Positions 2,886-24,704 of a DNA stretch of 64,000 nt are shown one piece after another. The position numbers were made by a program, and so were the translations under genes. The stretch is from Comamonas odontotermitis. GTDB taxonomy: Bacteria; Pseudomonadota; Gammaproteobacteria; Burkholderiales; Burkholderiaceae_C. Under the pieces are notes generated by a model, which was not told the origin of the DNA, searched no databases, and saw only the letters and a list, made by a program, of their open reading frames with translations. Numbering within the stretch: position 1 is the stretch's first letter; the number at the start of each line of letters is the position of its first letter. Location: positions 1 through 64,000 of the forward strand of contig NZ_JACHKZ010000005.1 in assembly GCF_014207855.1 (NCBI RefSeq). The letters are read 5' to 3'.

Positions 2886-3271
2886 CTGCGTCAATAACAC
2901 AGAGAGCCGAGTGTGGCTTTCGCCCCCAACCCCATGTGAAAGCGGGCGCCCACGCCTCGCAGTGCGTGAATGCGCTGCAGGCCACGCGCCCGTGCTTCCG
3001 CCTGGATTCGTTTTCCCTTCAGATTCGTCTGTCTGCCAAAGCGGGCTGCAGCACTTGCACTGGCTGCAAGTTCTTGCGGGTACAGACCAGACAGCTCCCG
3101 CTTTTGATAGCGAAATGCAACACAAATGATTTAATTTTTAAATTAATCATTGTTTTATGATAAATTTAATCACTTCTCTCAACCGTGTTCGCTGCATTCC
3201 AAAGCAATACGAAATGCCTTGGCAATACGTGCTGAATGCATTGCGATCACTGCATAGCACAGGTCTCTTCA
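2886..3271. other. Intergenic region with AT-rich promoter segment
   Basis: No gene is supported. The sequence at 3122-3177 is very AT-rich, in contrast to its surroundings, and contains an imperfect inverted repeat with atgatt/aatcat arms at 3125-3149. This is a plausible promoter region for the downstream secreted protein and a plausible H-NS-like silencer target. Confidence 0.4.
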
Positions 3272-4561
3272 ATGATTCTTCATCGTTACAGGCAAGCGCT
3301 GTCTATGGGGCTGGTTCTGACCGCTCCACTTGCGAGCCATGCCCAACTGGTTCTGCGGCCAGCTTCCGCCCTTCCGATCCCGACCTTCACCTGCGCCAAT
3401 GCCGCTGACCCACTGCTCACTGCCGATGCTTTGAAGAATCCGGGCCAGGCATTGAACACCAATGCTGTCAGTGTGGTGGATCGCGGCAATCAGCAACGCT
3501 GGGCTTACGCATTCGATCCAGCCAACCCTGGCTCTCACACCATTCCGAAGGCAACCGCGGGAAGCACCGAGCAGATCCCCACCTCGTACACCCGCGCGGG
3601 AAACACGCCTCCGTCCGACTTGAGCAGCCTGTCTTCCATGGCCTGGCAGTACTTTTCGGGGCGTGAGGTTTTTGCGTATGGCGGTGGCACTGCAACAGCC
3701 CCCCAGCTCGGCACAGGGCAGTCTTTGACGTCGGTCGGTTTCTATCTGTCAAACCCCAACGGCGGGGCGGCGGCCAACCAGACCCGCTTTCTGCAGTTCC
3801 AGTTCTATCTCGCGCCTGAGGTCGACCCCGCCACCTATCAGCTGACATTGAACGCGGTGTCTGCCGATGACCAGGTTCTGCGTTACTACCTCAATGGCAC
3901 GGCCTGGCAAAGCGCAGGGACCCAGCTAGGCGGTGGGGCTACCGCTGACCAGCAATGGCGCACCGGCCTCAATACGTTGACGGTGGCATTGTTTGACACG
4001 ATCTCCTCAGCCACCCGCCTGGCAGTGGGTGGTGCTACCGCTTCTAACTGCGCTGCCGTGATGCGGACCTTGGGTGTGTCTCTTGCCGTTCAGGCACCGG
4101 TCATAACACCCGAGCAAACCGAGACATTCACAGGGGTCGCCACTGCAACGCCGTCAGGCGGCGGCGCTGCAGGCCCACTGCCGGCCGGAACCTCCGTCAC
4201 AGTGACGCTGACGGGCCCCAATGGCTTTACCGCCACCCAAACCACAACCGTGGTGGGCAATGACGGCCAATACAGCATCATCTGGCCTGCTGGGCTTGCG
4301 CAAGGCAACTATGAGGCGATTGCCAGCCTTACAGCGCAACCTGCGGTCCAGTCCACGCTTGGCTCTTTTGAGGTGCGGGTAGAGACACCACCTCCTCCTC
4401 CGCCGCCGCCACCACCACCTCCTCCTCCACCGCCCCCGCCACCACCGCCTCCTCCTGCCCCAACTGCACCGCAGGCGGTTCCGGCTCTGGGTTCATTCGG
4501 GTTGATGGGCCTTTCATCTCTGTTGGCCTGGGTTGCCTTTGCCCGAAGACGCCGCATTTAA
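3272..4561 (+). CDS. IPTL-CTERM-type surface protein with 23-proline tract
   Basis: This is a 429-residue secreted protein. The ATG at 3272 gives a compact signal peptide (hydrophobic core LSMGLVLTAPL, cleavage after SHA); an in-frame ATG at 3236 would bury it. The region around residues 270-365 looks like an Ig-like fold (TFTGVATATPSGG, SVTVTLTGPNGF, QYSIIWPAGLAQGNYEAIASL). A run of 23 prolines encoded by mixed codons follows, then a sorting-type end: VPALGSFGLMGLSSLLAWVAF followed by ARRRR. This matches the IPTLxxWG-CTERM pattern (motif, membrane helix, basic tail). A terminator follows directly. Confidence 0.8.
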   Translation: MILHRYRQALSMGLVLTAPLASHAQLVLRPASALPIPTFTCANAADPLLTADALKNPGQALNTNAVSVVDRGNQQRWAYAFDPANPGSHTIPKATAGSTEQIPTSYTRAGNTPPSDLSSLSSMAWQYFSGREVFAYGGGTATAPQLGTGQSLTSVGFYLSNPNGGAAANQTRFLQFQFYLAPEVDPATYQLTLNAVSADDQVLRYYLNGTAWQSAGTQLGGGATADQQWRTGLNTLTVALFDTISSATRLAVGGATASNCAAVMRTLGVSLAVQAPVITPEQTETFTGVATATPSGGGAAGPLPAGTSVTVTLTGPNGFTATQTTTVVGNDGQYSIIWPAGLAQGNYEAIASLTAQPAVQSTLGSFEVRVETPPPPPPPPPPPPPPPPPPPPPPPAPTAPQAVPALGSFGLMGLSSLLAWVAFARRRRI

Positions 4562-4567
4562 TTCATA

Positions 4568-4590
4568 AAGCCACCTTCGGGTGGTTTTTT
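4568..4590 (+). terminator. Rho-independent terminator
   Basis: A ccacc-ttcg-ggtgg hairpin with flanking A/T pairing is followed by six Ts, just after the stop codon of the preceding secreted-protein gene. Confidence 0.8.
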
Positions 4591-4834
4591 ATTGACTGAA
4601 TGACTGCGGACGATTGGCATGCCATTACCACCCAACAGAACAAATCATGGGAATCTGCAGAGATTACTCACCAAGAGAGCATCTGACAGGATGTGTAAAT
4701 ACGCCCTCGCATTCCTAATGAAAACCCTCGTGAATCATTAACAATTCTTTATTAATATGCTTCTTATTCGACAAAGATATAATTCATAAAATAATAAGTT
4801 ACTATTGATAAATTAACTAAAATTGGAAATATAT

Positions 4835-6490
4835 ATGAATATTTTGAGAAATACTGTTGCTTGCGCATCGTTGCTGGTGGCAATGAGCGTGAACGCGCAA
4901 ACAACCACCCTATATGCTCAGAATTTCAACAGCCCTGCCACAACGGCGTGCCCCGATTGGGGCGGTGCGGGTTCGGCAAGCAGCTTGTCGACCGACTACA
5001 ACGGCGCAGGGCAAACTGGCTCAGCCACGTTCAGCCAAATTGGAACTGCAGATCGCGTGTGCTGGGGAAGCCCAGGCCTCAATACCGATCCAGAAGGAAC
5101 CGCAACGCCCTATTCCGGAGGGTTTGCCCGCAATGGGTCTGTGGTGGAGTCTTGGGCAATCGCCTTTGATCCTCAAGGGAAGCCCTTCATCAACGGGCAA
5201 CTCGATCTTGCACACATAACACCGGGCAATTTGAATGGCATTGCTACACCGCTGACGAACTACCCTGGCACAGCCAGCAGCGTTCCAATGGCGTTGCGCT
5301 TTTTCCGAATTCCGGCTGGCAGCAGTTTCAACCTCGCGGCCGGGGCAAGCACTGCAGTGGGTACCCCGGCCAATCCGGCCAATGTGATGATTGCGGGCGT
5401 AGCACAGACGCCGCTCCCTGAATCAGGCATGGTCGCAGTCACAAAAGACGGCAGTTACTCTCGCTATGCTGCCGATTGGAATGTGCACCAGTTTTCTGTA
5501 GATACAAGCAGTTTCGGGGTGGGCGACCAGCTCGCGATTGTGGGAACCGTGATCGATAACTTGACTTATATCGTTTTTGACAACTTGGTCATCACTGCCG
5601 CCTCGGCCCCCGTTCAGCCACCCAGCATCAGCAAGCATTTTGGAGCGCCGCAGGTAAATCCAGGGCAGTCGACTACGCTGACCATTGACATCACGGGCAA
5701 TGGCATCAACTCCGTCAATGGCCTCACGGTGACCGACAACCTGCCTGCACCAGTGGTCGTTGGCAATGGTGGCGTCATCGCCAACTCTTGTGGCGGCACA
5801 CTGGCTGCAACTGCGGGCAGCAACCAGATTCAGTTGACCAACGGTGTACTGCCAGCCGCAGGCTGCCAGCTTCAAGTAGAGGTGCAGTGGCCCATGGCTG
5901 CTGTGGCGCAATGTTCGGGTTCAGCGGTGACAAACACCATTGTCGACGGCACAGATTTCACCGTTGGTGCTACCACGACTGCGGGAACAAATGCCCAGGC
6001 AACGCTTGCCTGCCCGGCACCTCCAGCGCCTCCTGTCGCCTCTGTAAACTGCACCCCGAAGACGCTGGTGGATGCTGCGGGTCAAAGCGCCGTCTGCGCC
6101 ATCACACTCAACGTGTCCCAGCCTGCAGATTTGACAATCAACCTGCAGCCACCCACTGCCAGCCCTCGCTACCAAAGCACCTGCCTCAATACGATTGTGA
6201 TTCCTGCAGGTGCGACCAGTGCGACTTGCACTATTACAGCTACTGCCAATACCGAACCGAGCGACGGTGATGTAACGGCAACGATAGCGATTGTTGATTC
6301 GGCCTCTTCACCAACTCCATCCTATGTGGTGGGCACCCGGTCAGATAGCGTGCTGATTGGAAACGACGATGTACCACTCCCGCCAAGCACACCTTCGCCA
6401 GTTCCTTCACTGCATGTGCTGGCACTCCTTGCCCTCTCACTCGCCCTTGCTGGCCTTGGAGTATTCAGAGTGCGCAGTCACCAAGACTGA
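4835..6490 (+). CDS. IPTL-CTERM-type secreted protein with DUF11-like repeat domain
   Basis: This is a 551-residue exported protein. The ATG at 4835 (GGAAA upstream) gives a signal peptide cleaved after VNA. Residues about 25-265 form a beta-rich module. Residues about 268-375 (PSISKHFGAPQVNPGQSTTL, then NGLTVTDNLPAPVVV) match the conserved extracellular repeat type formerly called DUF11/DUF7933. A cysteine-paired beta domain follows. The end, SPVPSLHVLALLALSLALAG then a short basic tail, is a divergent IPTL-type sorting signal. About 240 bp of AT-rich DNA upstream is the probable promoter region. The role is unknown; a cell-surface or matrix protein is inferred. Confidence 0.78.
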   Translation: MNILRNTVACASLLVAMSVNAQTTTLYAQNFNSPATTACPDWGGAGSASSLSTDYNGAGQTGSATFSQIGTADRVCWGSPGLNTDPEGTATPYSGGFARNGSVVESWAIAFDPQGKPFINGQLDLAHITPGNLNGIATPLTNYPGTASSVPMALRFFRIPAGSSFNLAAGASTAVGTPANPANVMIAGVAQTPLPESGMVAVTKDGSYSRYAADWNVHQFSVDTSSFGVGDQLAIVGTVIDNLTYIVFDNLVITAASAPVQPPSISKHFGAPQVNPGQSTTLTIDITGNGINSVNGLTVTDNLPAPVVVGNGGVIANSCGGTLAATAGSNQIQLTNGVLPAAGCQLQVEVQWPMAAVAQCSGSAVTNTIVDGTDFTVGATTTAGTNAQATLACPAPPAPPVASVNCTPKTLVDAAGQSAVCAITLNVSQPADLTINLQPPTASPRYQSTCLNTIVIPAGATSATCTITATANTEPSDGDVTATIAIVDSASSPTPSYVVGTRSDSVLIGNDDVPLPPSTPSPVPSLHVLALLALSLALAGLGVFRVRSHQD

Positions 6491-6563
6491 ACATGAAACC
6501 GCCTCAGGGCCGATGCCAGTCAGCTAGGCCTTGAGCGACTGTCCCTCAGTCCACCAAAAACGT

Positions 6564-6591
6564 AAAAGGAGCGCATTTCGCGCTCCTTTTT
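6564..6591 (+). terminator. Strong rho-independent terminator
   Basis: aaaaggagcgc and gcgctcctttt pair around a 5-base loop and are followed by further Ts. The A/T-flanked stem would work in both directions. Confidence 0.85.
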
Positions 6592-6885
6592 CATGGTTTT
6601 CGGAGGTTGCAAGTCCTTAGCTGGCAGGCATTGGCCTTCAGGTGGGCTATTCATGGTGCGCCTCCCGATTTGGACTATCCAAGAGGCTGTTTCTCCCACC
6701 CCAGGCCAAGCGCCATACGGCCCCCAATTGCACAGGCTGCGAAAGGTACAACGCCAAACCCAAAGATGGCCCAGAAGGATAGAGGCATCAGGAAATCCGC
6801 TGATTGTCAATAAAAGTCAAAGGAAATTCAGATCTTTAATAGTTTTATACAATTTGACTTTCAATTCCGGAGAGGGATGGGTCCA
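6592..6885. other. Intergenic region; possible mini-ORF remnant on the minus strand
   Basis: The minus strand at 6675-6788 reads a 37-codon ORF that starts MPLSFWAIFGFGVVPFAACA and ends GWEKQPLG, with one hydrophobic helix and no good ribosome binding site. It may be the tail of a decayed membrane protein or chance. The AT-rich segment 6805-6865 is the likely promoter region for the next secreted-protein gene. Confidence 0.35.
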
Positions 6886-8085
6886 ATGAAAAAGCATAAC
6901 TTGGCGATGGGAGCAATTCTCTTCGCTACATTCCACGCATACGGTGCAGAAATTACGGTAACTGCCAATTCCAATTATTTTGCCAATTGGAGTTTCAGCG
7001 ATTTTCAACCTCCCGCACAATCTCTGTACTACTACGATGGATCAGGAAACAGAGGCGCTAATGCTTTACCGACCGGGGGTGGGCAGAATGTTGGAGCTCT
7101 GGCAGGTAACCCCTTGACATGGACAGTGCCAGAGCAGGATGCCACAAAAATCACTGCGGGGGTTTTCACCACCAATCGCAATACTTTTGGTACCAATCTC
7201 CCTGCTGGCCTATTTGGCTCCGTCCCCACACCCAATCCTGGCCAGGGCTTTCTGAACAGAGGCATTGGACAGTTCAGCACCGCCAAGCCATTCGCACCAG
7301 GCACCACATTCTTCTTCCAGGATTTTGACAATACGGAAACAGCAGAATATCGCTTCTATGACTGTGCTGGAGTTCAGGTGGATGCTGGTGATTTTGATTT
7401 TCTGAAAATATCCACCATCAATACCCCCAACCACTCCCTGCAAGGAAGCGCACCCAATCGGTATTGGACGGCGTCAGCGGTCGTAGCCAATGATCCCAAT
7501 ACGGTGAGTGGCATTACCATCAAGGCCAATAATGTCTGCCGTATCGATATATCCGGCACCCGCCCTGCCGGCACCGGAGGCAGTGTCAACTACTTCCTGG
7601 GCTCACCGCCCAATGTTGTGCCCACCGCGGCTCCGGCCATCTCTGGCACCATGCAGGTGGGATCGGTTGTGACAGGAACATATGCCTATGCGGACAACGA
7701 GTCTGATGTGGAAAACCCAACTGGTACCACGTATAAATTCGTCACCAGTCCCAATGCCAGCATCGCAAGCTCCAGCGAAGGCACCACCGTGGCAAGCGGA
7801 ACAACCGGGGGAGCCTCGGCAAACGTGCCTTACACGCTTGCGGGAGCCGATGTGAATATGTATATCTATTACTGCGTCACCCCCGCTGCTCAAACCGGGG
7901 CGTCCCCCGGGGTCGAAGTATGTACCGCAGCATCGGGCCCGGTCGCCGACAAGCCAACCCCACCGGTACCGCCAACCCCAGCCGCCCCAGCCAATGTTCC
8001 GACATTGGGTGAATGGGGGGTGATGGGGCTCTCATCGCTCATTGCCATGTTTGGACTTCTGCGCATGCGCAGACGCCAGAGTTGA
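6886..8085 (+). CDS. IPTL-CTERM surface protein
   Basis: This is a 399-residue exported protein. GGAGAGGG lies about 9 nt before the ATG at 6886, which gives a signal peptide (MKKHNLAMGAILFATFHAYGA). An in-frame ATG at 6877 sits on top of the ribosome binding site and is less likely. The N-terminal 230 residues are beta-rich with a Cys pair; residues about 240-360 look like a repeat domain (PAISGTMQVGSVVTGTYAYA). The end is a textbook IPTL-CTERM tail: VPTLGEWGVMGLSSLIAMFG followed by LLRMRRR. Membrane retention with later sortase-like processing is expected from the family; the biological role is unknown. Confidence 0.85.
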   Translation: MKKHNLAMGAILFATFHAYGAEITVTANSNYFANWSFSDFQPPAQSLYYYDGSGNRGANALPTGGGQNVGALAGNPLTWTVPEQDATKITAGVFTTNRNTFGTNLPAGLFGSVPTPNPGQGFLNRGIGQFSTAKPFAPGTTFFFQDFDNTETAEYRFYDCAGVQVDAGDFDFLKISTINTPNHSLQGSAPNRYWTASAVVANDPNTVSGITIKANNVCRIDISGTRPAGTGGSVNYFLGSPPNVVPTAAPAISGTMQVGSVVTGTYAYADNESDVENPTGTTYKFVTSPNASIASSSEGTTVASGTTGGASANVPYTLAGADVNMYIYYCVTPAAQTGASPGVEVCTAASGPVADKPTPPVPPTPAAPANVPTLGEWGVMGLSSLIAMFGLLRMRRRQS

Positions 8086-8140: not shown

Positions 8141-8497
8141 CTATAAAATTTCTAGCACCAGTTCTGGTGGGCGGCACAGGCGGGCGCCCTTGCCGGTCAC
8201 CACGATGGGGCGGTTGAGCAACATGGGATGCGCGGCGATATGGTCGATGAGCTGCGCATCGCTCCATCGGGGGTCGTCCAGACCCAGCTCCTGGTAGATC
8301 GCCTCTTTGCTGCGCATGACATCGCGCACCGGCACTCCCAGTTGCGCAATCAATGCGGCCAACTGCTGTGCATTCAGAGGTTGCTGGAGGTAATCCACCA
8401 CCTGCGGCGCGATGCCGCGCTCCTGCAGAAGAGCGAGTGCGCCGCGCGAATTGCTGCAGCGCGCATTGTGGTAGATGGTGGCAGTAGTTGGGGACAT
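8141..8497 (-). CDS. ArsC-family arsenate reductase-like protein
   Basis: This 118-residue protein has a thioredoxin-like fold of the glutaredoxin-dependent ArsC family. The N-terminal IYHNARCSNSRGALALLQER carries the active-site Cys in the expected HNxRCSxSR context, and the C-terminal LLNRPIVVTGKGARLCRPPE matches the substrate-binding part. The family reduces arsenate using glutathione/glutaredoxin, but many members (YffB/Spx-like) do other thiol chemistry. No ars operon genes are near. It sits 12 bp downstream of a small uncharacterised gene and probably shares its transcript. Confidence 0.82.
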   Translation of the reverse strand: MSPTTATIYHNARCSNSRGALALLQERGIAPQVVDYLQQPLNAQQLAALIAQLGVPVRDVMRSKEAIYQELGLDDPRWSDAQLIDHIAAHPMLLNRPIVVTGKGARLCRPPELVLEIL

Positions 8498-8509: not shown

Positions 8510-8914
8510 TTACAGGGAGGCTTCCAGCTCCGGCATGATGATGCGCGCCTTGGTGAGCGCCATGCCGAGGTTTGCCGTGCGGCGGCATACAAAGACGGCC
8601 ACATACTCCTCGTTGGTCTTGCCCCGGATGAAGATGTGCAGCAGGTTGTCGCTGTTGACGATGATTTCCTGGAAATAGTGGTGGCCATCATCAGCCAGGC
8701 CGCGCGACTTTTTGAACATGCGCTCGATCATCGAGACATTGGGGCCGTTGAACAGATCTGCCGTTGCAGCCGCAACCAGATCAATAACCTCGCGTGGGTG
8801 CGAATCCACGGTGCGGATTGCCAGCAGCATGCCACTGGCAACGTCCACATAGCCTGCGGCCAGGCACTCCGGTACAAACGATGCGACCTTCTGTAGAACT
8901 GCATCCATCGACAT
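8510..8914 (-). CDS. Conserved hypothetical protein, possibly roadblock/LC7-like
   Basis: This 134-residue soluble protein has alternating helix and strand (AGYVDVASGMLLAIRTVDSH, then VIDLVAAATADLF, NLLHIFIRGKTNEEYVAVFV). The order helix-strand-strand-helix-strands is reminiscent of roadblock/LC7 modules that regulate small GTPases, but I cannot show homology. The start at 8914 is preceded by AAGGAAAG; an upstream in-frame ATG at 8938 has no such site. It lies 78 bp downstream of the ATPase-phosphatase fusion and 12 bp upstream of the arsC-like gene, all on the minus strand. Confidence 0.55.
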   Translation of the reverse strand: MSMDAVLQKVASFVPECLAAGYVDVASGMLLAIRTVDSHPREVIDLVAAATADLFNGPNVSMIERMFKKSRGLADDGHHYFQEIIVNSDNLLHIFIRGKTNEEYVAVFVCRRTANLGMALTKARIIMPELEASL

Positions 8915-8992: not shown

Positions 8993-10426
8993 TTAGCCCA
9001 TTTTTTCCAGCAGCATGGCTTCGTAGGCTGCCAGGATGTTCTCCTGCAACTGCGACTGCACGAACTGCGATTCAATGGCGCGCACACGGCGCAAAGACTC
9101 CTCTGCAGTGATGCCTTCAAATACCAGCCAGGCCGCCAGCACCGTGCCGGTGCGGCCCAGGCCTGCCAGGCAGTGCACCGCAAGCACCTCGCCGCCCAAC
9201 AGCAGACGCTTCATCTTGAGCATCAGCATCTGCAGTTGTGCGACCGTAGGCGGCTCGCGGTCGTAGACGGGAAGATGGACGTTCCGCAGCCCATTGCGCA
9301 CGAGCGCGGCCTGGTCCACATCCTTTTCCGTCAATGAGATCAACACGGTCACGCCACAGCGCTTGAGCGCCTGCAGATCGATGTCGATGGCATTGACGAC
9401 ACCCGGCAAGGGGGTTCCCGCCAGCTTGCCCGGCACCAACCAGGCAAATCCGCGCGGGCCCCGCGACTCGGGAACAAAGGTTTCGGCAGCCAGCACAGGG
9501 TTTGCCAATGCCAGATCGGGCAATACAGCGCGCTGGCTCAGGCGTGCGGCCTGCTCTGCCGTTGCGGCTGCCGGAACAGGGGGTGCTTGCACCGCTTCTA
9601 CCTGCATCGCCTGCTCCACCGTGATCTCCGGCGCCAGCACCGAGCAGCTGCCGCTGCGCACGAATTGCTGGCCCGCTGGCGAATACGGGCCAGCAAAAAA
9701 GGCTTCGGCTGCGTTCGATTCCTGCACCGTCCCCCCCGCGAGCAACAGCACGCGGTCTGCCACCGTGGCGGCATGGCGCTGGTTGTGGGTAACAAACAGG
9801 ATGGCCCGCTCCTGCCCTATGCGCTTGAGCAGTTCCAGCAGCAAGTAAGCGTCGTACTCGTCCAAGTCGGCTGTAGGCTCGTCCACCATCAGCAAGGCGG
9901 GGTCTGCCGCCACCTCACGCAAAATGGCGATGGCGCGCTGTTGAACCGCAGGCAGCTCTACTGCAGGGGTAGCAAGCTCGGCTTTCAACTCCGAAAACCC
10001 CATCCCATCCAGAAAATCACTGCACCACACGCTGCGCTCCCGCGCAGATTGCGAGCCCGCGCGCCGAAACTCGGTGAGCGAATCCTGCACGCTCGCCAGC
10101 ATCAGCCGTGCATGCTGGCGCACCATGCGCGGGCGATGCGTTTCAGTGAGTGGGTGGCCCGCATAGCGCACACCGCCCCATTGGCGAAAGCGCGGATTTT
10201 CGTCGTTCACTCCAGCGAGGCTGCGCAACAGGCTCGATTTGCCACCACCTACGGGGCCCATCAAAGCCGTGATCGTGCGTGGCGCCATCTGCAGGTTCAA
10301 CGCCGAGAGGATGACCTTGTCTCCGTAGGCCACGCCCCAGTTGTCTGTTTCCAGAGCAGGTATTTGTTGAGACACACGTGCTATGCCGCTGAGCGGCGCT
10401 TTCTTGATCCACCGGGCACACAGCAT
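8993..10426 (-). CDS. ABC-type ATPase fused to a dual-specificity/tyrosine phosphatase domain
   Basis: This 477-residue cytoplasmic protein has two enzymatic parts. Residues about 25-250 are an ABC nucleotide-binding domain: Walker A GPVGGGKSS with Lys63, Walker B LLMVDEP, D-loop, and H-loop FVTHN. The signature LSGGQ is replaced by ELPAVQQRAIA. An Ala/Pro-rich linker (about 255-320) follows. Residues about 325-477 are a cysteine phosphatase: GPRGFAWLVPGKLAG, a probable general-acid Asp in PVYDREPP, and the P-loop HCLAGLGRTG with Cys419 and Arg425 (CX5R). The ATPase most resembles PstB-type importer subunits, yet no permease is adjacent. A phosphorylation-controlled ATPase is an inference. 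ATG at 10426 is used; TTG at 10429 is adjacent. Confidence 0.85.
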   Translation of the reverse strand: MLCARWIKKAPLSGIARVSQQIPALETDNWGVAYGDKVILSALNLQMAPRTITALMGPVGGGKSSLLRSLAGVNDENPRFRQWGGVRYAGHPLTETHRPRMVRQHARLMLASVQDSLTEFRRAGSQSARERSVWCSDFLDGMGFSELKAELATPAVELPAVQQRAIAILREVAADPALLMVDEPTADLDEYDAYLLLELLKRIGQERAILFVTHNQRHAATVADRVLLLAGGTVQESNAAEAFFAGPYSPAGQQFVRSGSCSVLAPEITVEQAMQVEAVQAPPVPAAATAEQAARLSQRAVLPDLALANPVLAAETFVPESRGPRGFAWLVPGKLAGTPLPGVVNAIDIDLQALKRCGVTVLISLTEKDVDQAALVRNGLRNVHLPVYDREPPTVAQLQMLMLKMKRLLLGGEVLAVHCLAGLGRTGTVLAAWLVFEGITAEESLRRVRAIESQFVQSQLQENILAAYEAMLLEKMG

Positions 10427-10589: not shown

Positions 10590-12221
10590 TTATCTTTTCC
10601 CCGTACGGATCGTGCGAATCAGCAGTACCACCGGCACCAGCCCCACCAGTACCAGGGCCAGCGATGGCAGGGCGGCCTCGCCCAGCCGCTCGTCGCGTGC
10701 CAACTGGTAGGCCACCACGGCCAGGGTGTCGCTGTTGAAGGGCCGCAGCACCATGGTGGCCGGCAGCTCCTTCATCACATCGACAAACACCAGAAGCGCA
10801 GCCGTGAAGGCGGAGCGGCGCAACAGCGGCCAGTGCACTCGCGTGAGCAGGCCCAGGCTGCTGGTGCCGAGCATGCGCGCCGATTCGTCCAGGCTGTTGG
10901 GAATACGTGTGTAGCCGCTTTGCAGCGACTGCAGCGCTATCGCGGTAAATCGCACCAGATAGGCCCAGACAATGCCCGCTGCAGTGGCCGTGATCCAGGC
11001 CGGAAAGCCCCATTGCGGCGCCCACTGCTGCACCCACCCCACAGGAAGCAGCAGGCCCACCACAATGACGGCGCCCGGCACCGCGTAACCCAGGCTGATG
11101 AGTGCAACCAGTGCGCGCGTGAACCAATCGCGGCTGCGCCGGGCCGAAAATGCCGCCAGCAGCGCAATCGCCACGGCCAGCACGGCGGTGATGGCGCCAA
11201 AGCGGATGCTGTTGCCCGCCCATTGCAAGAAGCGGTCAAATGGGATGACCGACCAATCGGCCGCCAGGGGCCTCAGCATGAAAAGCACCGGCGCCACAAA
11301 ACCCAGCAATACCGGCAACCCGCACAGCAGCCATGCAAGCGCACTGCGCATGCCCGTCAACTTCTGGGGCTGCGCTTCCGCAGACGATGCCCGCCCTACG
11401 CCGCTCGTTACAAAGCGCATGCGGCGCTGGGCGCGCAGCTCCAGCTGCAGCACCACCAGCACGAGCACCAGCAGCATGGTGGCCAGTTGCGCAGCGGCCG
11501 TGCGGTTCTCCATCGACAGCCAAGCCTTGTAGATACCCGTGGTAAAGGTCTGAATGCCGAAATAGCTGACAACGCCAAAGTCGGCCAGGGTTTCCATCAC
11601 CACCAGCGCAACCCCCGCCACCACTGCAGGCCGCGCCATCGGCAGGGCCACGGTGCGGATGCGCCTGCCCATGGGAGCGCCCAGCAGGCGAGCCGCTTCC
11701 ATCAGGTGCGCGGCGCGCTCCGAGAGCGCGGTGCGCGCCAGCAGGTACACATAGGGGTAGAGCGCCACCACGAACACCAGCACCGCGCCGCCCAGCGAGC
11801 GAATTTCGGGCAGAAGACGCCCTTCCAGCCCAAAACTGGCGCGCAAGCCACTTTGCAGCGGGCCACTGAACTGCAGAAAGTCAGTATAGGCGTAGGCGGT
11901 GACGTAGGCTGGCATGGCCAGCGGCAGCAGCAGCAGCCATTCAAAGGTCTTGCGGCCCCGAAAATCAAACAGGGTGACCACTGCTGCGCACACCGTCCCC
12001 ACCAGTGCCGCGCCCACGGCCACCATCAGGCCCAGGGCTATGGTGGTCTGCAGATAACCCGGCAGCACCGTGGCAAACATCTCGCGCACGATGGCAAAGG
12101 CATCGGCGTCGTTGCCGATTCCGGGCAGCCATGCGCTGAAAACGGTGACAACCGGCAGCACCAGCGCAAATGCGATGACGAGCAGCAGACACTGGCGACG
12201 GATGCGGGCAAGGTTTTGCAA
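10590..12221 (-). CDS. fbpB: Iron(III) ABC transporter permease FbpB/AfuB
   Basis: This 543-residue inner-membrane permease is a tandem fusion of two BPD-type permease halves, as is normal for the ferric-iron FbpB/AfuB family, with roughly 12 membrane segments. The N-terminal half carries WLLLLPLAMPAYVTAYAYTD and a first EAA-like loop (LMEAARLLGAPMGRRIRTVA). The second half has DESARMLGTSSLGLLTRVHW. Both loops contact the ATPase. It is divergent from fbpC with a 71-80 bp shared promoter region, rather than in the usual fbpABC order. No binding-protein gene is present in the window. Confidence 0.88.
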   Translation of the reverse strand: MQNLARIRRQCLLLVIAFALVLPVVTVFSAWLPGIGNDADAFAIVREMFATVLPGYLQTTIALGLMVAVGAALVGTVCAAVVTLFDFRGRKTFEWLLLLPLAMPAYVTAYAYTDFLQFSGPLQSGLRASFGLEGRLLPEIRSLGGAVLVFVVALYPYVYLLARTALSERAAHLMEAARLLGAPMGRRIRTVALPMARPAVVAGVALVVMETLADFGVVSYFGIQTFTTGIYKAWLSMENRTAAAQLATMLLVLVLVVLQLELRAQRRMRFVTSGVGRASSAEAQPQKLTGMRSALAWLLCGLPVLLGFVAPVLFMLRPLAADWSVIPFDRFLQWAGNSIRFGAITAVLAVAIALLAAFSARRSRDWFTRALVALISLGYAVPGAVIVVGLLLPVGWVQQWAPQWGFPAWITATAAGIVWAYLVRFTAIALQSLQSGYTRIPNSLDESARMLGTSSLGLLTRVHWPLLRRSAFTAALLVFVDVMKELPATMVLRPFNSDTLAVVAYQLARDERLGEAALPSLALVLVGLVPVVLLIRTIRTGKR

Positions 12222-12288
12222 ATGCGAATCAACCTGAATAAAAGCTGGCGATTCTACCTGCCGGCAATCGTCCGCGGTGCCCGCCCTC

Positions 12289-12294
12289 TACAAT
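12289..12294 (+). promoter_or_regulatory. Putative -10 box (TACAAT) for leaderless fbpC
   Basis: TACAAT ends 7 nt before the ATG at 12302, so transcription would begin at or next to the A of the start codon. No ribosome binding site is visible. This is inferred from spacing only. Confidence 0.4.
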
Positions 12295-12301
12295 GCAAAC
12301 C

Positions 12302-13354
12302 ATGTTTCTAGAGGTCTCTCAACTCGATGTGCGTTATGCCGGCCGCGCGCAGGCCGCTGTCAATCAGGTGTCGCTGCAGCTGCAGGCCGGTGATATCGGC
12401 GTATTGATCGGGCCATCGGGCTGCGGCAAAACCACCTTGTTGCGCGCGGTGGCGGGGCTGGAGCCCATCAGCCATGGCGAGATCCGGTTGAATGGCGCCA
12501 TCGTCAGCTCCAGTGCAGGCAGCCTGCCACCTGAAAAACGCCGCATAGGCATGGTATTCCAGGATTACGCCCTCTTTCCGCACCTGAGCGTGGGCAAGAA
12601 CGTGGCGTTTGGCATTCACCACCTGCCCAAGGCAGAACAGTTGCAGCGTGTGCATGAGGTGCTGAGCCTGGTGGGCCTGGAAGGCAGCGCCGTACGCTAC
12701 CCGCATGAACTCTCGGGCGGCCAGCAGCAGCGCGTGGCCTTGGCGCGTGCCCTGGCGCCGCGCCCGCAGCTGATGCTGCTCGATGAGCCGTTCTCCAACC
12801 TGGACGTTGATCTGCGTGAGCGCCTGGCGTATGAGCTGCGCGACATTCTGAAGGCCGCTGGCGCCACCGCCCTGTTCGTGACCCACGACCAGCTGGAGGC
12901 CTTTGCCATTGGAGACCAGATCGGCGTGATGGAACATGGCCGCCTGCACCAGTGGGCCAGCGCCGCTACCCTGTACCGCGAGCCTGCCAGCCGTTTTGTG
13001 GCCGATTTCATCGGCCATGGCGCCTTTGTACCCGCCACACCCGTGCAGGGGCCGCAGGGCTGGCAATGGCAGACGCCTCTGGGCTCCATCGCCACCGTGC
13101 AGACAACGCAGCCTGATGGCCCCTGCGATATGCTGCTGCGCGCCAGTGAAGTCGTGCTGGACGCCAACTCCCCCCACCATGGCACCTTGCTGCGCAAGTC
13201 CTTTCGCGGCTCTCAGTACCTGTATACCCTGGCACTGACAGATGAGTTGCAGGTATACGCGCAAGTACCCAGCCAGCTGGACCACCCCATTGGCACACGC
13301 TTGGGGCTGCGTGCCCAACCGGTCAATCTGGTGCACTTTCCCAGTGCAATCTGA
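12302..13354 (+). CDS. fbpC: Iron(III) ABC transporter ATP-binding protein FbpC
   Basis: This 350-residue ATPase energises ferric iron uptake with FbpB. It has Walker A GPSGCGKTT near residue 38, the Q-loop (MVFQDYALFPHLSVGKNVAF), signature LSGGQQQRVALARAL, Walker B LMLLDEP and the switch His in FVTHDQ. The C-terminal 120 residues form the TOBE-type regulatory domain of this family. I chose ATG 12302 (MFLEVSQL) over ATG 12293 because a -10-like TACAAT overlaps the latter. Divergence from fbpB suggests joint control from the short shared promoter; no clear Fur box was identified by eye. Confidence 0.9.
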   Translation: MFLEVSQLDVRYAGRAQAAVNQVSLQLQAGDIGVLIGPSGCGKTTLLRAVAGLEPISHGEIRLNGAIVSSSAGSLPPEKRRIGMVFQDYALFPHLSVGKNVAFGIHHLPKAEQLQRVHEVLSLVGLEGSAVRYPHELSGGQQQRVALARALAPRPQLMLLDEPFSNLDVDLRERLAYELRDILKAAGATALFVTHDQLEAFAIGDQIGVMEHGRLHQWASAATLYREPASRFVADFIGHGAFVPATPVQGPQGWQWQTPLGSIATVQTTQPDGPCDMLLRASEVVLDANSPHHGTLLRKSFRGSQYLYTLALTDELQVYAQVPSQLDHPIGTRLGLRAQPVNLVHFPSAI

Positions 13355-15408: not shown

Positions 15409-18400
15409 TCAGGCCCCCAAGGCGCCATCTGGGGCGTGGTGAGCAGTGCCTTCGGCAGCATCGGCGGCCTTGATTTCACTGTCGAGCACATACTGGCGCA
15501 CCAACGACAGCAGCACTTCGTCCGCATAGGGCTTGCCCAGGTAATGGTCTACACCCAGGCTGGCCGCATGCTCGCGGTGCTTGTCGGCAATGCGCGATGT
15601 GATCATCACCACCGGCAGGTCCTTGAGCGCATCATCGCCGCGAATCTCGCGCACCAGCTCAAAGCCGTCCATGCGCGGCATTTCGATGTCGGACAGCACC
15701 ATGACTGGGCGTTCTTCCCGCAGACGGTCCAGCGCCTGCAACCCATCAGCAGCCAGAGCCACCCGGTAGCCTTCGCGCTGCAGCAGGCGCTGCGTCACTC
15801 GGCGCACGGTGATCGAGTCGTCCACCACCAGCACCAGCGGCGTCTGTACCACCTGCTCAGCCAACGCCCGCACGGGAGCCTTGGCCACTTCAGGATGCAC
15901 CGCAGCCTTGGCAATGCGCTCTGCCACCTGATCGCCGTACACGGTATACAGTGCCACGGGGTTGTAGATCAGCACGATCGCGCCCGAAGCCAGTACCGAC
16001 ATACCCGCCAGACCCGGCAGGCGCGCCAGTTGCGGCCCGAGGTTCTTGACCACCACTTCCTGGTTGCCCAGCACTTCGTCCACATGCACTGCCAGCCGCT
16101 TGGCGGCAGAGCGCAGAATGACGACTGCACTGGTCTTCTCCGGCACTTCATTGCTGCGCAGATCGCCTTGCAGCAGTGCACCCGCGTAGTAGTACGGCAA
16201 CTGGTCGTCGTTGTCCTGATAAACGCCGCTGGAATGCGCCTTGTCTATCGTGTCCTGCGATACCCGGCGGACATACTCGACCAGGTTGGCAGGCACGCCA
16301 AACTTGATGGCGCCCGCACGCATCATCACCACCTGCGTCACCGCCGTGGTCAGGGGCATCACCATCTGGAAGGTGGTACCGCGGCCCTGGTCCGATGTGG
16401 TGACGATGTGACCGCCCAGCGACTGGATTTCGGTACGCACCACGTCCATGCCGATGCCGCGGCCCGAAATATCGGACACCGCCGCCGCCGTGGAAAAACC
16501 GGGCGCAAAGATCAGCTGTGCGGCCTTTTGCACATCGACCGCCTCTTCCATCGTCACGAGGCCCTGCTGCACCGCTTTCTGGCGAATCTTCTCAAGCTGC
16601 AGGCCCGCGCCATCGTCCTTGAACGAGACGGCAATGTCATTGCCTTCCTGCTTCACATCGACCGTGATGGTGCCGATGGCAGGTTTGCCATGGCGCTTGC
16701 GCAATTCTGGCGATTCGATGCCGTGGGCCACGCTGTTGCGCAGCAAGTGCTCGAACGCCGGGGTCACCCGATCCAGCACGCCACGGTCGATTTCAATCGC
16801 GCCACCGGCAATGTCCAGCTTGACCTGCTTGCCCAGCTCCTTGGAAATCTGCCGCACGATGGCATACAGCCGCTCGGAAATCGAGTCAAACTCCACCATG
16901 CGCGTGCGCAGCAGATCACGCTGCAGCTCGCGGGCCTGTCGGCCCTGGGCAATCAGGTCGTCTTCCGCCCCTTCAGCCGTGCGCTGCAGATTGCGCTGCA
17001 CGGTAGCCACGTCGTTGACCGACTCGGCCATCATCCGGGTGAGCTCCTGCACACGGGTGAAACGGTCGAACTCCAGCGGATCAAAGCCCAGGTCGGTATC
17101 CTTGGCCTGCGCCATGCGCGACTGCATCTGCGACTCGGCCTGCACTTCCACGTCGCGCAGCAAGCTGCGCAGACGCTCCAGATTGGCCGACATGTCCTTG
17201 ATCGACGAGCGAATGTTGGACAGGCGCATGTCCAGGCGGGAGCGGGCAATCAGCACCTCGCCAGCTTCGTTGACCAAACGGTCCAGCAGCTGCGAGCGAA
17301 CCCGTACCGACTGCCCGGCGGCCACCCGCACCGGCGCCATGCGCAGCACCAGGGGCTTGTGGTGAATGCCTGGGCTCGGTTGTGCCGATGGCTCGCTCGC
17401 CATGGCACCGGCCTCCTCTTCCTGCGGCGCAGGCGCACTGGCCACCACTTCGGCAACCACCGCACCCATATCCGAGGCATGGGCCGCTTGCTGAGGCAGC
17501 GCACCTTCGGCCAATACCTGGTTGCCGCGCTGCTGCAAGCCGACAAACTCATGCTGCAGGCCGTCATAACGGCCCAGCAAGGTTTCGATGTCTTGCGTGG
17601 TCAGGTTTTCCGTGCCGATGTCTTCAACCTCGGACTCCATGCGGTGCGACATTTCGCCCAGGCGCATGGCTCCGGCAAGACGCGCACTGCCCTTGAGCGT
17701 GTGCAGATGGCGCAGCACCTCTCCACGCGGAGGCAGGTAGTTCGGATCCGCAGACCATTCGCGCAGCGCCGTACCCAGCTTGGGCAGCAGGTCCTGGGCT
17801 TCCTCTTCAAATATCAGGAACAGGTCTGGATCGATTACGTCATGCACGTCCATCGAATCGTCCAGGCCCAGGCTTGCAGGCCGTGCATCGCTGATCAGCG
17901 GCTGAGAGGCTGCACGGGCGATGTGCGCCTCCTGGTCCAACTCGGCCAGATCGCTGGCAGGGCCATCCTGCATTTCATAGGGAGGATGCAGTGCGGAGTC
18001 GATTTCCTGGTTGGCAATGTCGTGCAGGTCTTTGAGCACGATATCGTTGGCAGGTTTGATAAAGCCCGCGGCCACCTGGTGCAGGAGCTTGCGGATCTCG
18101 GAGCCCGCCGCCTGGAATATATTGAGCCAGGCCACCTCGGGGTGCGACGCGTTTTGTATATGCGCCAGGGCATGCTCCAATGCGCGCCCCAACTCCGACA
18201 AGGAGTGGAAGCCCACGGTGGACGAACTGCCAGCCAATGAATGTGCATAGGCAATGGCATCTTCCGGAAAGTGCCGGTTGGGGTTTTGCGCCCAGGCGTA
18301 CAGCACTTTCTCCAGGCTGTGCGACCACTCTTCTGCCTCTGTGAGATAAACGTTGAAAAGCGCGGTGCTGACACCCAGTGCGTTCGTCACCTCTTCGCTG

Positions 18401-21400
18401 GATTCCACCGCCGGGCCGCTCTGCGCCTCTGCCGCAGAAGCTGCGGCCTCAATGCCTGCAACGGGCTGCGCCTCTTGTGCAGGTTGTGCAGGGGGCGCTG
18501 CAAAACTGCCCAGCTCAAGGGACGGCAATTCCAGCGGAAGCTTTTCTGGAGCGGCCACTGGCAATGCGAGGGCTTGTGGCTCTTCGACAAACTCGATGCT
18601 GTCGTCCATCGCCACAAAGCCAACGCCCGAGTCCTGCGGCTCCTGCGGAGCCACGGGGGCCGCCGGCACCTGCTCTTGCGCCATGGCCTGGGCAAACTCG
18701 GCAAAGTCGACTTCTTCCGCACTTTCAGGTGCAGATGCAGCAATCACTTCATGGGTTGCCCCAGTCTCGGGAGCAGCGGCAGGCTCCAGATTCAGATCCA
18801 GACCTTCCAGGGGCCATTCCAGGGCGACTGCGGGCTCTTGGGCCTGGAGCCGTGGAGCATCCGGCGCCTCGTCAACCAAGGCAGGCTCTGCCTCTGGCAG
18901 GGTATCGGCGTGAGCCGCAGGTTCCTGCCTCGCGTCAAACGCGGAGTCCAGCGACAGCTCCGGCAACTCCAGCGGCAGCACCATCGTCTGCTCCGGATCC
19001 GGGAATGCGACATCTGCCGGAGCCTCTTCTGGCTGCAGTGCATCAACTTCAGTCGCAGCACCCACACCGGCCTGACCAGGCATTACCAGCGGAATGTGGG
19101 TGCCATCCAAGCGCATCGCGTCCGCAGAGATGCGGAAGATGTCCGGGTTCCAGGTCGAGTTGCGCTCGGCACCTATGTCTTCCGCCCAGCGGCCAAATCC
19201 GTCCAGGGCTTCGGTGCTGAGGGCCAGCAATCCGGCATTCGCGGGCCGGTGTTCTGCCAGCCAGGTATTGAGCACCTGTTCCATGGACCAGGCCGCTTCG
19301 CCAAATTGCATCAGTCCCACCATGCGGGAGCTGCCCTTGAGCGTGTGGAAGGCCCGGCGCAATGTGGTCAGCGCTTCTGTATCGGTCGCATCGCGGCGCA
19401 GGGCCTGCAAGGCCTGGCCACCGGTCTGTACCACGCTCTGCGCTTCTTCCAGGAAGATGCCGAGCAGCTCATCATCGAGCTCCTCCTGCTGAACAGGGAC
19501 TGCAGGCGCAGCCTGGACTGCCGGCGCAAACATCTGCAGGTCCGGAGCCAATACAGCAGGCGCCGCAGGTGGCGCAGATGTCAAATCAAACAGCGGGGCG
19601 GGGATGGTAGGCGCAAAGTGGAAGGAGTCATCTTCCATCGCCTGATCGGCTGCAGGCCGCGATGGCTGCGGCTGCGCCACATGGCCTGCCTTCTGGCTAC
19701 CCATGACGATTCGCAGCTCGCCACTTGCCGCATCAAACAGAAACAGCTTGCGCGCCAGAGTCCGCTGGTAACCCAGCATGTCGAGCAGGAAACCCAGTGC
19801 GCCGAGGCTGTTGCCCAGTTTCTCGAAAACTGCAGGCTTGTCTTCGTCACTGATCTGGCCAACCGCCAATTGCTCCACCACAGACCGGAAATGCTGGGTG
19901 GCAGCTGCGGCCTGATCAAGACCCAGCACCGACAGCACGCCGCGCATCTGCGACATGGAGCCCGTGACTGACCCCAGCATCGACACATCTTCCGGGTTGC
20001 GGAAGTACTGATCGAGGTGCTTTTCAACCTCGGCCAGAGTCGAGCGCAGCTCATCGACCACACTACCCATGGTCTGGTGATCGCTGACCTTGCGGTACAG
20101 CTCTTCCACCCAGGGCTCCAGCGGCTCGGGCGCTGCACCGGACAGCACATGGTCGAGACGCTGAGCCAGACGGCTGGCCCGCTCGCGCATCAGCACGGGC
20201 TTGACATCCAGCGACTCCAGATTGGCCTGCAGGTACAGAATGGAAGTGGCAACCTCCATCGCCAGTGGTGCAGACGGAACTGCGCTGGTGGACAGCAACC
20301 GCTCCGCTACCCGGCCCAATGCGGCGCCCAGTTCGTCGGCCCCCACATGCAATTTGTGCAGAGATTCACGAATCAGGTGGAACTGGTCGGCAACAGGCTT
20401 GATCTTGTAGCGGTCACCATCTGCGAGCGAAGACCACAGCTCGGCAGCAGACTCGATACGCTTGCGCGCCTGAGCCAGCACTGCCGGATCGAACAGTCCA
20501 AAGCGCTCCTGCGTGTAGTTGACGCCTTGCAGATCGCTGCTTTGCAGACTGGCACGTACCGCCTGCAGTACCCGGGCCTCGGACTCTTCGGCGCCTTGCG
20601 CCACAGCGCAGAAAAAATTGAGCTCATGCAGCAGTGCCTGATCCACATCGGAGCTGCCTTTGGCCTGCAAGGCAAACTGCATGATGACACGCGACGCGGA
20701 GCGTTTGACATACAGGTCCGGTACCAGCAGCTTATGCGCCAAGCCATCAAAAAAGCCGGATGCCACTTTCCAGAACAACCGCAGAGGCGCTTTGGTCTGC
20801 CCTTGTGCAATGCCCTGGCACACGGCCTTCAGATCACGGGCAGCGCCGCTGTCCGCTGATTTGATGATGTGCAGCATGCCCGCGTCCAGGCGCTCACGTG
20901 CGCTCCGGTCCAGTGCAAGCACCGCCACTGCGTCGGTCTTTGGCTCCTGCTGGTTGGCATCTCCATGCCACAGGTCAGCCGGGTGCACACGGTCCTGCCC
21001 CACCAGCTCCTGCATTTCCTTGTACTGTGGAAACAGCGCCACAAACGAAACCGGGCGCGCCTTGAGCACATGGCCCAGGTATTCCAGCAACGCAAACGAG
21101 GTGCGCTCCATCAACGCGACCGCCTTTTCGGTGCAAAGATGCGGCTTTTGGGCAAAACGCTGGGTAGCGCCTTCCATCAGGCCGACCAATTGCGCCGCCT
21201 GCTCCACGCCCACCATTTGCAGAGCGCCCTGCACCTGGTGCAGGTTCTGGCGGGCAACACGGATGCCCGTCGCGTCAATGGCCTCCAGGTCAGACGCCTT
21301 GGCAGCCTCTACATCCCGAATGTAACGATTGAGCGCCTTGACTGTGGATTCCAGCGAACGGCGAACCTCATCGCTGATCCACGCCAATGGCCCAAGATCC

Positions 21401-21453: not shown

Positions 21454-21497
21454 GCAACAGTCCCCGATTTCGGGTCAAAAATGAACAACAGACGCGG

Positions 21498-23759: not shown

Positions 23760-23798
23760 ACAGAGTGGTTATGGTCAGAGGGTGGCAGGCGGGCGGCG

Positions 23799-24326
23799 CT
23801 ATGCCGTGATGTCGAGAAAGTCAGGCGCATTGGCCAGCAACTGCAGATTCAGCTCCTGCCATTGTTCGCCGCTGGCTGTGGTGTAGAGGGCACCAAAGAA
23901 TTCAGGCGCCGCATCGCCTGCGTCGCTGGAATGCTGGAAATCGGCAACGCCGCGCAGGCCCCCCAACTGCTCCACGAAAAGCGCCGCATTGACGCCCATC
24001 ATCGGATTGAGTGCGACCACAGAGGCTTCGGCAAATACCTGCTCGCTCCGGGCAATGGGCAGGCCCAGCATGCGAGCGAGGTCAACCACCGTCAACAAAA
24101 TGCCCCGGATGCTGGTGACTCCCAGCATCCAGGGCTTGGTGTAAGGAACCGGCTCCACGCCGCTCCAGCCCACCACTTCGCCGGATTGGCTCAGAGGCAG
24201 CAAGAAGTTCTTGTCGCTGATCTTGACTGCCAGCCATGATGCGCCCACAGCAGTCTGTGTACGCGCCTGGCTCAAACGATCTGCCAGGCGAGCCTGCAGA
24301 TCCCGTAGGTCTTCGCGTTGTGCCAT
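23799..24326 (-). CDS. pilI: CheW-like adaptor PilI
   Basis: This 175-residue CheW-domain scaffold couples PilJ to ChpA. FLLPLSQSGEVVGWSGVEPV and VTSIRGILLTVVDLARMLGL are the characteristic CheW strands. It starts 3 bp after pilH ends, consistent with tight operon packing. Confidence 0.9.
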   Translation of the reverse strand: MAQREDLRDLQARLADRLSQARTQTAVGASWLAVKISDKNFLLPLSQSGEVVGWSGVEPVPYTKPWMLGVTSIRGILLTVVDLARMLGLPIARSEQVFAEASVVALNPMMGVNAALFVEQLGGLRGVADFQHSSDAGDAAPEFFGALYTTASGEQWQELNLQLLANAPDFLDITA

Positions 24327-24329
24327 GCC

Positions 24330-24695
24330 TTATCCCAATGCCTCGATCTTGGCCTTGAGTTCGGCCGGGTCCACCGGTTTGGTCACATAGCCGCGGGCGC
24401 CCTGGCGCATACCCCAGACGCGGTCGGTTTCCTGATTCTTGCTGGTGCACATGATGATCGGAATATCCGCATAGTCCGGGTTGCGCGTGATCGAGCGTGT
24501 GAGCTGGAAGCCGTTTTGCCCGGGCATCACCACGTCCATCAGGATCAGGTCAGGGCGCTCTTCTGCCAGACGCTGCATCGCCTCGTCCGAATTCTGTGCC
24601 GTGCGCACCACCATGCCGTGACGCATCAACAGGTCGCTCAAGAACATCAACTCGGTCTTGGAGTCGTCGACGATTAAAACTTTTTGAATAGGCAC
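24330..24695 (-). CDS. pilH: Response regulator PilH
   Basis: This 121-residue stand-alone CheY-type receiver has the phosphoacceptor Asp in LILMDVVMPGQNG, the acidic pair in VLIVDDSKTE, the Thr/Ser switch in IIMCTSKNQE and the Lys in VTKPVDP. In Pseudomonas, PilH opposes PilG in setting pilus retraction and extension. It lies second in the pil operon. Confidence 0.9.
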   Translation of the reverse strand: MPIQKVLIVDDSKTELMFLSDLLMRHGMVVRTAQNSDEAMQRLAEERPDLILMDVVMPGQNGFQLTRSITRNPDYADIPIIMCTSKNQETDRVWGMRQGARGYVTKPVDPAELKAKIEALG

Positions 24696-24704
24696 AGCCC
24701 CTCC

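Follow-up and report, generated by a model that had tools for sequence, protein, structure and literature searches.

An ABC-type ATPase fused to a dual-specificity phosphatase, with a predicted Roadblock/LC7-fold partner, in Comamonas odontotermitis

The window analyzed here, 64,000 nucleotides from Comamonas odontotermitis (positions 1 to 64,000 of contig NZ_JACHKZ010000005.1), carries on its minus strand a coding sequence (8993..10426) for a protein of 477 amino acids. In it an ATP-binding cassette (ABC) nucleotide-binding domain is joined to a phosphatase of the dual-specificity/protein tyrosine phosphatase (DSP/PTP) type. The module formed by this signature-less ABC ATPase, its fused phosphatase and a Roadblock partner encoded by the next gene is real and unstudied. 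We consider it fairly probable that it is a signaling module in which the ATP-bound ABC domain gates the phosphatase, and that it derives from an MglA/Roadblock-like system. No description of the fusion was found among the literature matches listed, in a search with subscription journals mostly outside its reach, and a term search of PMC9503650 and PMC7159879 gave nothing relevant to it.

Results

The Fusion Is Genuine and Conserved

Read from 10426 to 8993 on the minus strand, the frame gives 477 residues with zero internal stops; the plus strand in the same register contains a stop. The start was placed at the ATG at 10426, but translation could also begin at a TTG (10429) or further downstream, and homologue starts vary upstream of residue 25. 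The ABC nucleotide-binding domain spans residues 25-256 (9659..10354, minus strand) according to Pfam, NCBIfam and structure matches, with ABC_tran scoring 52.8 bits (cut-off 25) over residues 41-186. The dual-specificity phosphatase domain spans residues 324-470 (9017..9457, minus strand). Within residues 324-468 three Pfam models score above their cut-offs, namely PTP-SAK with 67 bits (cut-off 27), Tc-R-P with 71.1 bits (27) and DSPc with 36 bits (33.5), Tc-R-P being the best-scoring phosphatase model. Residues ~282-319 between the two domains form an Ala/Pro-rich linker of low model confidence. The original prediction, that an ABC ATPase and a CX5R phosphatase share one polypeptide, is thus confirmed by a single uninterrupted frame with both domains above the Pfam cut-offs, and the positions that it gave for Lys63, Walker B, the H-loop, ELPAVQQRAIA and HCLAGLGRTG with Cys419 and Arg425 were all correct.

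A scan for relatives with one genome per species gave 201, from which 80 loci were kept. The ten weakest of these (L079-L088) matched the phosphatase part only, L079 also matching part of the linker, and are outside the counts. The 74 loci examined are L009-L078 and L097-L100, where L098 repeats L053 and L099 repeats L036. Both domains share one frame in 68 of these 74 loci, found in Comamonas, Delftia, Acidovorax, Hydrogenophaga, Rhodocyclaceae, Collimonas, Methylotenera, Stenotrophomonas, Frateuria, Xanthomonas, Acidocella and Myxococcota; together with the window they make up the 69 rows of the alignment used below. Of the other six, L035 is split across two frames, four (L067, L072, L075, and L078) are cut off at their start by the end of a contig, and L074 yielded the phosphatase part alone. 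The fusion is therefore genuine; a local frameshift or assembly artefact, which absence from all relatives would have indicated, is ruled out.

One database search, in which 7997 candidates were scored, returned at least 859 homologues. Both GxxxxGK[ST] and HCX5R were present in 121 of 121 proteins (the query and 120 homologues among the matches listed). Purifying selection acts on both halves: the ratio of non-synonymous to synonymous substitution rates (dN/dS) was 0.06-0.31 for the ABC half and 0.04-0.18 for the phosphatase half in 8 of 9 pairs, the ninth (L016/L017) being too similar to use.

A possible three-way fusion with Roadblock in Frateuria (L054, 676-aa frame) was rejected, as the fusion sits in another frame (523 aa). 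Acidocella-type homologues (L031-L034, L064, L066, and L068-L070) have longer open frames of 644-1147 aa from stop to stop. Those of L031, L066, L068, and L069 have an N-terminal hydrophobic helix together with long acidic or Pro-rich stretches, and the Acidocella-type proteins are possibly membrane-anchored forms. Just past the ABC domain lies a Gly-Ser-Cys motif, residues 259-261 (9644-9652), with G259 in 69, S260 in 58 and C261 in 55 of the 69 rows.

Cis ATP-Site Motifs Are Largely Kept and the Signature Is Degenerate

Walker A of the fusion is GPVGGGKS, residues 57-64 (10235..10258, minus strand), with G62, K63, and S64 each present in 69/69 rows. Walker B reads LLMVDEPT with D182 and E183, and H214 forms the H-loop. 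Conservation across the rows is high for K63 (69), D182 (69), E183 (67), the Q-loop residue Q104 (67) and H214 (63), and the window holds both the Q-loop Gln and the H-loop His. An aromatic A-loop residue is found in 58/69 rows; the D-loop Asp position is variable. The fusion has the ABC fold, with PhnK and MlaF among its structure matches. PHROGs matches were generic ABC families, one unnamed family and, across the phosphatase half, a family bearing the name thymidylate synthase (E 6e-7), and PADLOC matches covered the ATPase only (mad3, mad8, and AriA).

At the signature position the alignment places LPAVQ, residues 158-162 (9941..9955, minus strand), instead of LSGGQ. A non-canonical signature had been predicted for this protein alone, and it holds for the family: neither LSGGQ nor the pair of glycines occurs at this position in any of the 69 rows. 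Among the 121 proteins the position is mostly L[SPT]xVQ and never LSGGQ; the letters LSGGQ occur in six of them near residue 70. Around the signature, the helix-start Leu is kept in 66/69 rows, R164 in 69/69 and the signature Ser in 23/69. LSGGQ is present in all seven further ABC loci that were retrieved from this genome. Since the cis motifs are kept and LSGGQ is absent from all rows, the domain appears still able to bind ATP in cis, with the element acting in trans altered. The low dN/dS of both halves argues that the degenerate signature is a property of the family and not of a decayed copy.

The Phosphatase Half Retains Its Catalytic Residues

The HCX5R catalytic loop (within HCLAGLGRTG) occupies residues 418-425 (9152..9175, minus strand). 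H418, C419, and R425 are each found in 69/69 rows, as is T426, and the general-acid candidate D389, 30 residues upstream of C419, is found in 68/69. Sequence matches of this half in the structure database include 25xa_A (E 2e-22) and DUSP23 (E 3e-14), with chains of ~150-162 residues. As the VIA-align rows all fell on the ABC half, the phosphatase fold rests on sequence. The half is of the DSP/PTP type with near-invariant catalytic residues, and phosphatase activity is predicted.

A Predicted Roadblock/LC7-Fold Gene Adjoins the Fusion

The strongest functional clue, overlooked by the original prediction, is a conserved adjoining gene at 8510..8914 on the minus strand. It encodes a protein of 134 aa, the probable partner of the fusion. 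Its ATG lies 78 nt after the fusion stop, and in the sequence a purine-rich GAAGGA stands directly 5' of this ATG. The AlphaFold model of the protein (pLDDT 87, pTM 0.80) has the order alpha-beta-beta-alpha-alpha-beta-beta-beta-alpha. When this model was used in a fold search, 50 of the 50 PDB matches listed were Roadblock/LC7 proteins or their complexes (best E 1.6e-7), among them MglB, MglC, LAMTOR/Ragulator and Streptomyces and archaeal Roadblocks. A sequence profile of the protein gave nothing significant against the PDB, matches coming from the fold search alone. The protein is thus predicted from its model to have a Roadblock/LC7 fold.

Of 71 loci (70 and the window), 65 have a Roadblock relative in their flanks. 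The flanks without one belong to L044, where the contig ends 181 nt past the match and the gene lies at the edge of another contig of the same genome, to L062 and L064, where the gene is elsewhere in the genome, and to L068-L070, where none was found in the genome. The L062 genome has a second fusion-Roadblock pair elsewhere (L114). Fusion and Roadblock gene were on the same strand in 58/58 loci measured. The Roadblock gene was directly downstream in 52/58 loci, at about -7 to +136 nt with Roadblock starts estimated; it was upstream of the fusion in L036, L048, L071, and L073, and longer gaps were found in L027 and L045. Mean distances between relatives were 0.57 for the ABC half, 0.42 for the phosphatase half and 0.31 for Roadblock, which makes Roadblock the most conserved part and the ABC half the fastest-evolving.

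Loss of ATPase residues did not follow loss of Roadblock by a clean rule. Such a rule fits L068-L070, which carry H214Q in genomes where no Roadblock turned up; the exceptions are L029 and L077, where H214 is lost and Roadblock is adjacent, L064, where no Roadblock is adjacent and the residues are kept, and the L062 genome.

Several further arrangements of the Roadblock family were observed. Two Roadblock copies (7139-7717 and 9492-9893) flank the fusion in Delftia sp. PS-11 (L014). The same family, often in tandem, occurs in genomes with no match to the fusion phosphatase (L089, L092 at 12172-12999, L093, L095, and L096), and a globin gene is also found near the Roadblocks of L092. Near the Roadblocks of these genomes lies a protein that ends in a calcineurin-like phosphoesterase and whose N-terminal half is kinase-like by eye; in L076 (10360-11760) this protein adjoins the fusion itself. 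This protein is a second, unrelated phosphatase paired with the Roadblock family. A distant family member in L090 and L091 has as neighbors a protein-kinase-like gene and several genes for large GTPases of dynamin-like type (names by eye).

Small GTPases Accompany Some Fusion Loci

Genes for small GTPases lie beside the fusion in 8/74 loci of Pseudomonadota and Myxococcota. They are of the PF03029/Ras type in L037, L050, L051, L097, and L100 and of the Arf type in L052, L055, and L076; Pfam assignments were obtained for L050, L051, L052, L055, L097, and L100. A GTPase also adjoins the additional fusion-Roadblock pair in the genome of L062 (L114), and L115 has a GTPase frame that shares 5 nt with that of the fusion. 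A Roadblock of the Pfam type follows in 5/74 loci (L037, L050, L051, L074, and L100; Pfam-confirmed in L037 and L100). Proteins uniting 2Fe-2S ferredoxin and globin domains, in some cases separated by a flavoreductase, or parts of such proteins, come after the module in 10/74 loci (L027, L028, L030, L037, L041, L051, L065, L072, L074, and L100; from Pfam for L037, L041, and L065), which suggests an oxygen, nitric oxide or redox input to the module. In the midpoint-rooted tree all eight GTPase-linked loci were placed in the basal part and ferredoxin-globin neighbors in both parts. Because all GTPase-linked loci are basal, the two-gene form of the window appears to be derived, the rooting being tentative.

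Co-occurrence was assessed in 397 Pseudomonadota genomes, with a phosphatase-half match counted below E 1e-15, a threshold set once the list had been seen. Six genomes had such a match; all six had a Roadblock (Fisher 6e-8) and all six a GTPase (2e-6). Across the sample, Roadblock was accompanied by a GTPase in 24/27 genomes (Fisher 5e-23).

No GTPase gene lies beside the module in the window. The genome of the window has two small-GTPase genes unlinked to the module, one on contig C3 with a Pfam Roadblock adjoining and one on contig C9. The C3 locus (L112, 5535-7666) is a row of genes for a helix-turn-helix-like protein, a Ras-type GTPase, the Pfam Roadblock and a second Roadblock-like small protein (by eye).

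Other Genes in the Window

An arsC-family gene (8141..8497, minus strand; TIGR00014 above cut-off) follows the Roadblock gene after 12 nt and is possibly co-transcribed with it. Such a gene also directly follows Roadblock in L009-L012 and is found elsewhere in the flank in other Comamonas-group loci. On the far side of the permease that precedes the fusion (10590-12221, minus strand) is a divergent transporter ATPase gene with intact LSGGQ (12293-13354). A chemosensory cluster at 15409-25091, ~5 kb from the fusion, contains CheA-, PilJ- and CheW-like genes (CheW by eye) and two response-regulator genes. The promoter scan found one site, at chance level; six terminator-like sites were found against 2.4 expected, and none is relied on. 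At 3236-8085 three consecutive plus-strand frames encode putative secreted proteins whose C-termini form hydrophobic tails; IPTL-CTERM matches the third, and the tails of the first two are similar by eye.

Discussion

The gene pair would encode a cytosolic signaling module. The ABC domain would bind ATP in cis through the A-loop, Walker A, Q-loop, Walker B with its Glu and H-loop; as it has lost the LSGGQ glycines, through which canonical ABC dimers make the contact in trans needed for ATP hydrolysis, it is probably an ATP-loaded regulatory domain and not a transport motor. It may gate the tethered CX5R phosphatase, which would take phosphate off a signaling protein. Such coupling of phosphorylation and ATP use, suggested already in the original prediction, is plausible. 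The Roadblock/LC7-fold protein would be the dedicated partner of the fusion. Judging from the action of MglB on MglA, its dimer would attach to the fusion and determine where the fusion is located or which nucleotide state it is in. The ancestral operon may have held a small GTPase and Roadblocks, leaving the window lineage with a stripped two-gene form and its GTPases elsewhere in the genome. Computation shows the domains, motif conservation, predicted Roadblock fold, neighborhood and co-occurrence; we infer the contact between fusion and Roadblock, the ATPase rate and hydrolysis, the gating, the substrate and the derivation.

Several observations weigh against this. The 134-aa protein matched nothing in Pfam, even at E 1, nor in NCBIfam, PHROGs, or PADLOC; the Pfam Robl_LC7 model did not detect it, and PF03259 was found in this genome only on contig C3. 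A contact between Roadblock and the ABC half was examined by correlation of distances, and the result favors the phosphatase, if anything: the partial r was 0.58 for Roadblock and phosphatase vs. 0.30 for Roadblock and ABC. This closer tracking speaks rather against the ABC half as the main Roadblock contact. The signature Ser persists in 23/69 rows, so the loss of the signature is not complete. In a few members H214 or E183 is lost with the adjacent Roadblock kept (L029 and L077), and ATP hydrolysis may therefore be dispensable. The Fisher values are not corrected for relatedness: of the six genomes with a strong phosphatase-half match, three share the genus of the window, and one family supplies most of the genomes with both Roadblock and GTPase. 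Two of the six (G082 and G171) were scored on the phosphatase half alone, which lies there in open frames of 535 and 538 aa. Finally, 8/16 chosen fusion genomes had no match to this GTPase type (E 1e-8), some of them metagenome-assembled genomes (MAGs) and two of them Myxococcota, a group where other loci carry Arf-type GTPases; the GTPase is therefore not obligatory.

An alternative that we regard as rather unlikely is that the ABC half is only a scaffold or ATP sensor attached to a constitutive phosphatase, with Roadblock serving a small GTPase in trans and making no contact with the fusion. It agrees with the ABC half being the fastest-evolving part, with Roadblock co-varying more with the phosphatase, with the general absence of LSGGQ and the variable D-loop Asp position, and with the two small-GTPase genes of this genome, one of which adjoins a Pfam Roadblock. 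However, K63 and D182 are invariant in all rows, and with the dN/dS of the ABC half this is a constraint seemingly beyond that of a mere scaffold.

It is similarly doubtful that the module controls type IV pili or the Pil-Chp chemosensory pathway, its phosphatase acting on a pilus or polarity protein. Excluding two re-fetched loci, genes of the PilT/PilU family are found in the flanks of 14 fusion loci, from Xanthomonadaceae, Hydrogenophaga and a betaproteobacterial MAG, and the CheA gene of the nearby CheA/PilJ cluster is found in the flanks of 5 further loci. In Myxococcus, MglA stimulates type IV pili, according to the accessible part of the report (PMC9481161). The PilT-linked lineages are nevertheless neighbors in the tree, so the association may be one inherited location, and CheA, RuvX, and AlgH genes form a common cluster of their own. 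With PilT, PilU, ChpA, and PilJ, the pilus genes sought, as queries, the other fusion loci yielded nothing of similar strength; the exceptions, weak at ~31%, were matches to PilJ in L059-L061. The pilus link is suggestive and not independent. A wider proposal, to which we give a correspondingly low probability, is that the ABC ATPase, its dimer no longer supplying signature glycines in trans, is a G-protein-like switch with the Roadblock dimer as its activating or exchange factor, and that its ATP state sets a phosphatase resetting an MglA-type polarity or pilus circuit.

The original prediction was right about the conserved fusion, the non-canonical signature and a protein that is not a typical transporter subunit, but calling the ATPase PstB-like, with a link to phosphate signaling, did not hold up. 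TIGR00972 (PstB) is the best NCBIfam match of the fusion, yet at 117.2 bits it falls far short of the cut-off of 343.2. In this genome the fusion domain ranks 44th of 104 TIGR00972 matches, 43 others fitting better, and the only match above cut-off (397 bits) is the genome's own PstB on a different contig. No pst genes were noticed among the neighbor genes read, though no search was aimed at them. That a PstB-like ATPase here joins phosphate transport to phosphate signaling is very unlikely. No more credible is an ATPase of an unusual transporter formed with the iron-type permease (10590-12221), presumably FbpB-like, that lies directly upstream on the same strand: the permease is flanked on its other side by a transporter ATPase gene with intact LSGGQ, and as a query it matched in only 12 fusion loci, all Comamonadaceae or Burkholderiaceae by record title. 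Equally improbable is a polymorphic-toxin effector, as read from the NCBI name for family members, "phosphatase domain-containing putative toxin", and from Tc-R-P as best phosphatase model; the conserved two-gene locus, its low dN/dS, the ABC domain and the Roadblock partner are unfit for an exported toxin, no toxin-delivery gene was noticed in the neighborhoods read, which were covered by no dedicated search, and the Pfam scan, the one search made for delivery domains or signal peptides, found no delivery domain in the fusion.

If the ABC domain does gate the phosphatase with Roadblock as its partner, the pairing would widen the range of nucleoside triphosphatases (NTPases) under Roadblock control, and it would provide an example from nature of an ABC domain serving as a switch and not a motor. 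The fusion also supplies a candidate phosphatase for GTPase/Roadblock circuits, and there are grounds to rename a family partly labeled as putative toxin.

Relation to Known Systems

Roadblock/LC7 proteins regulate NTPases in settings from bacterial polarity to the lysosomal Ragulator. The module is most like MglA/MglB and other prokaryotic GTPase/Roadblock systems, such as Myxococcus Mgl and the actinobacterial conservons, which likewise have a Roadblock/LC7 partner gene beside a P-loop NTPase; in several fusion relatives a small GTPase gene also adjoins the pair, as does a Pfam Roadblock in some. In the part of the survey available, the Roadblock/LC7 superfamily is predicted to regulate NTPases, bacterial members are coupled to small GTPases, and the MglA clade is coupled to MglB in 404/488 sequences (PMC4316618). 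MglB is both activating and exchange factor for MglA, as stated in the accessible part of a further report (PMC11016934). Unlike MglA/MglB, the NTPase of the module is of the ABC type and fused to a phosphatase, no GTPase is adjacent in the window, and the Roadblock is outside the Pfam model.

Other ABC ATPases also work with an enzyme complex or a small regulatory protein, namely PhnK/PhnL in the C-P lyase complex and MlaF with MlaB. PhnK and MlaF are found in the structure matches of the ABC half. In these systems the signature is canonical and no fused phosphatase is known. Atypical dual-specificity phosphatases (DUSP23 and SsoPTP; PTP-SAK and Tc-R-P) share the HCX5RTG loop and the Asp 30 residues before the Cys, whereas the phosphatase of the fusion, in contrast to the short single chains of the DUSP23-type matches, carries an attached ABC domain. 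PstB has the same fold and is the best, though weak, profile match, but the fusion is far below its cut-off and without LSGGQ, and the genome has its own PstB elsewhere. Because one defining feature of each is missing in the window, we do not file the module as an ABC transporter ATPase, as PstB or as MglA/MglB.
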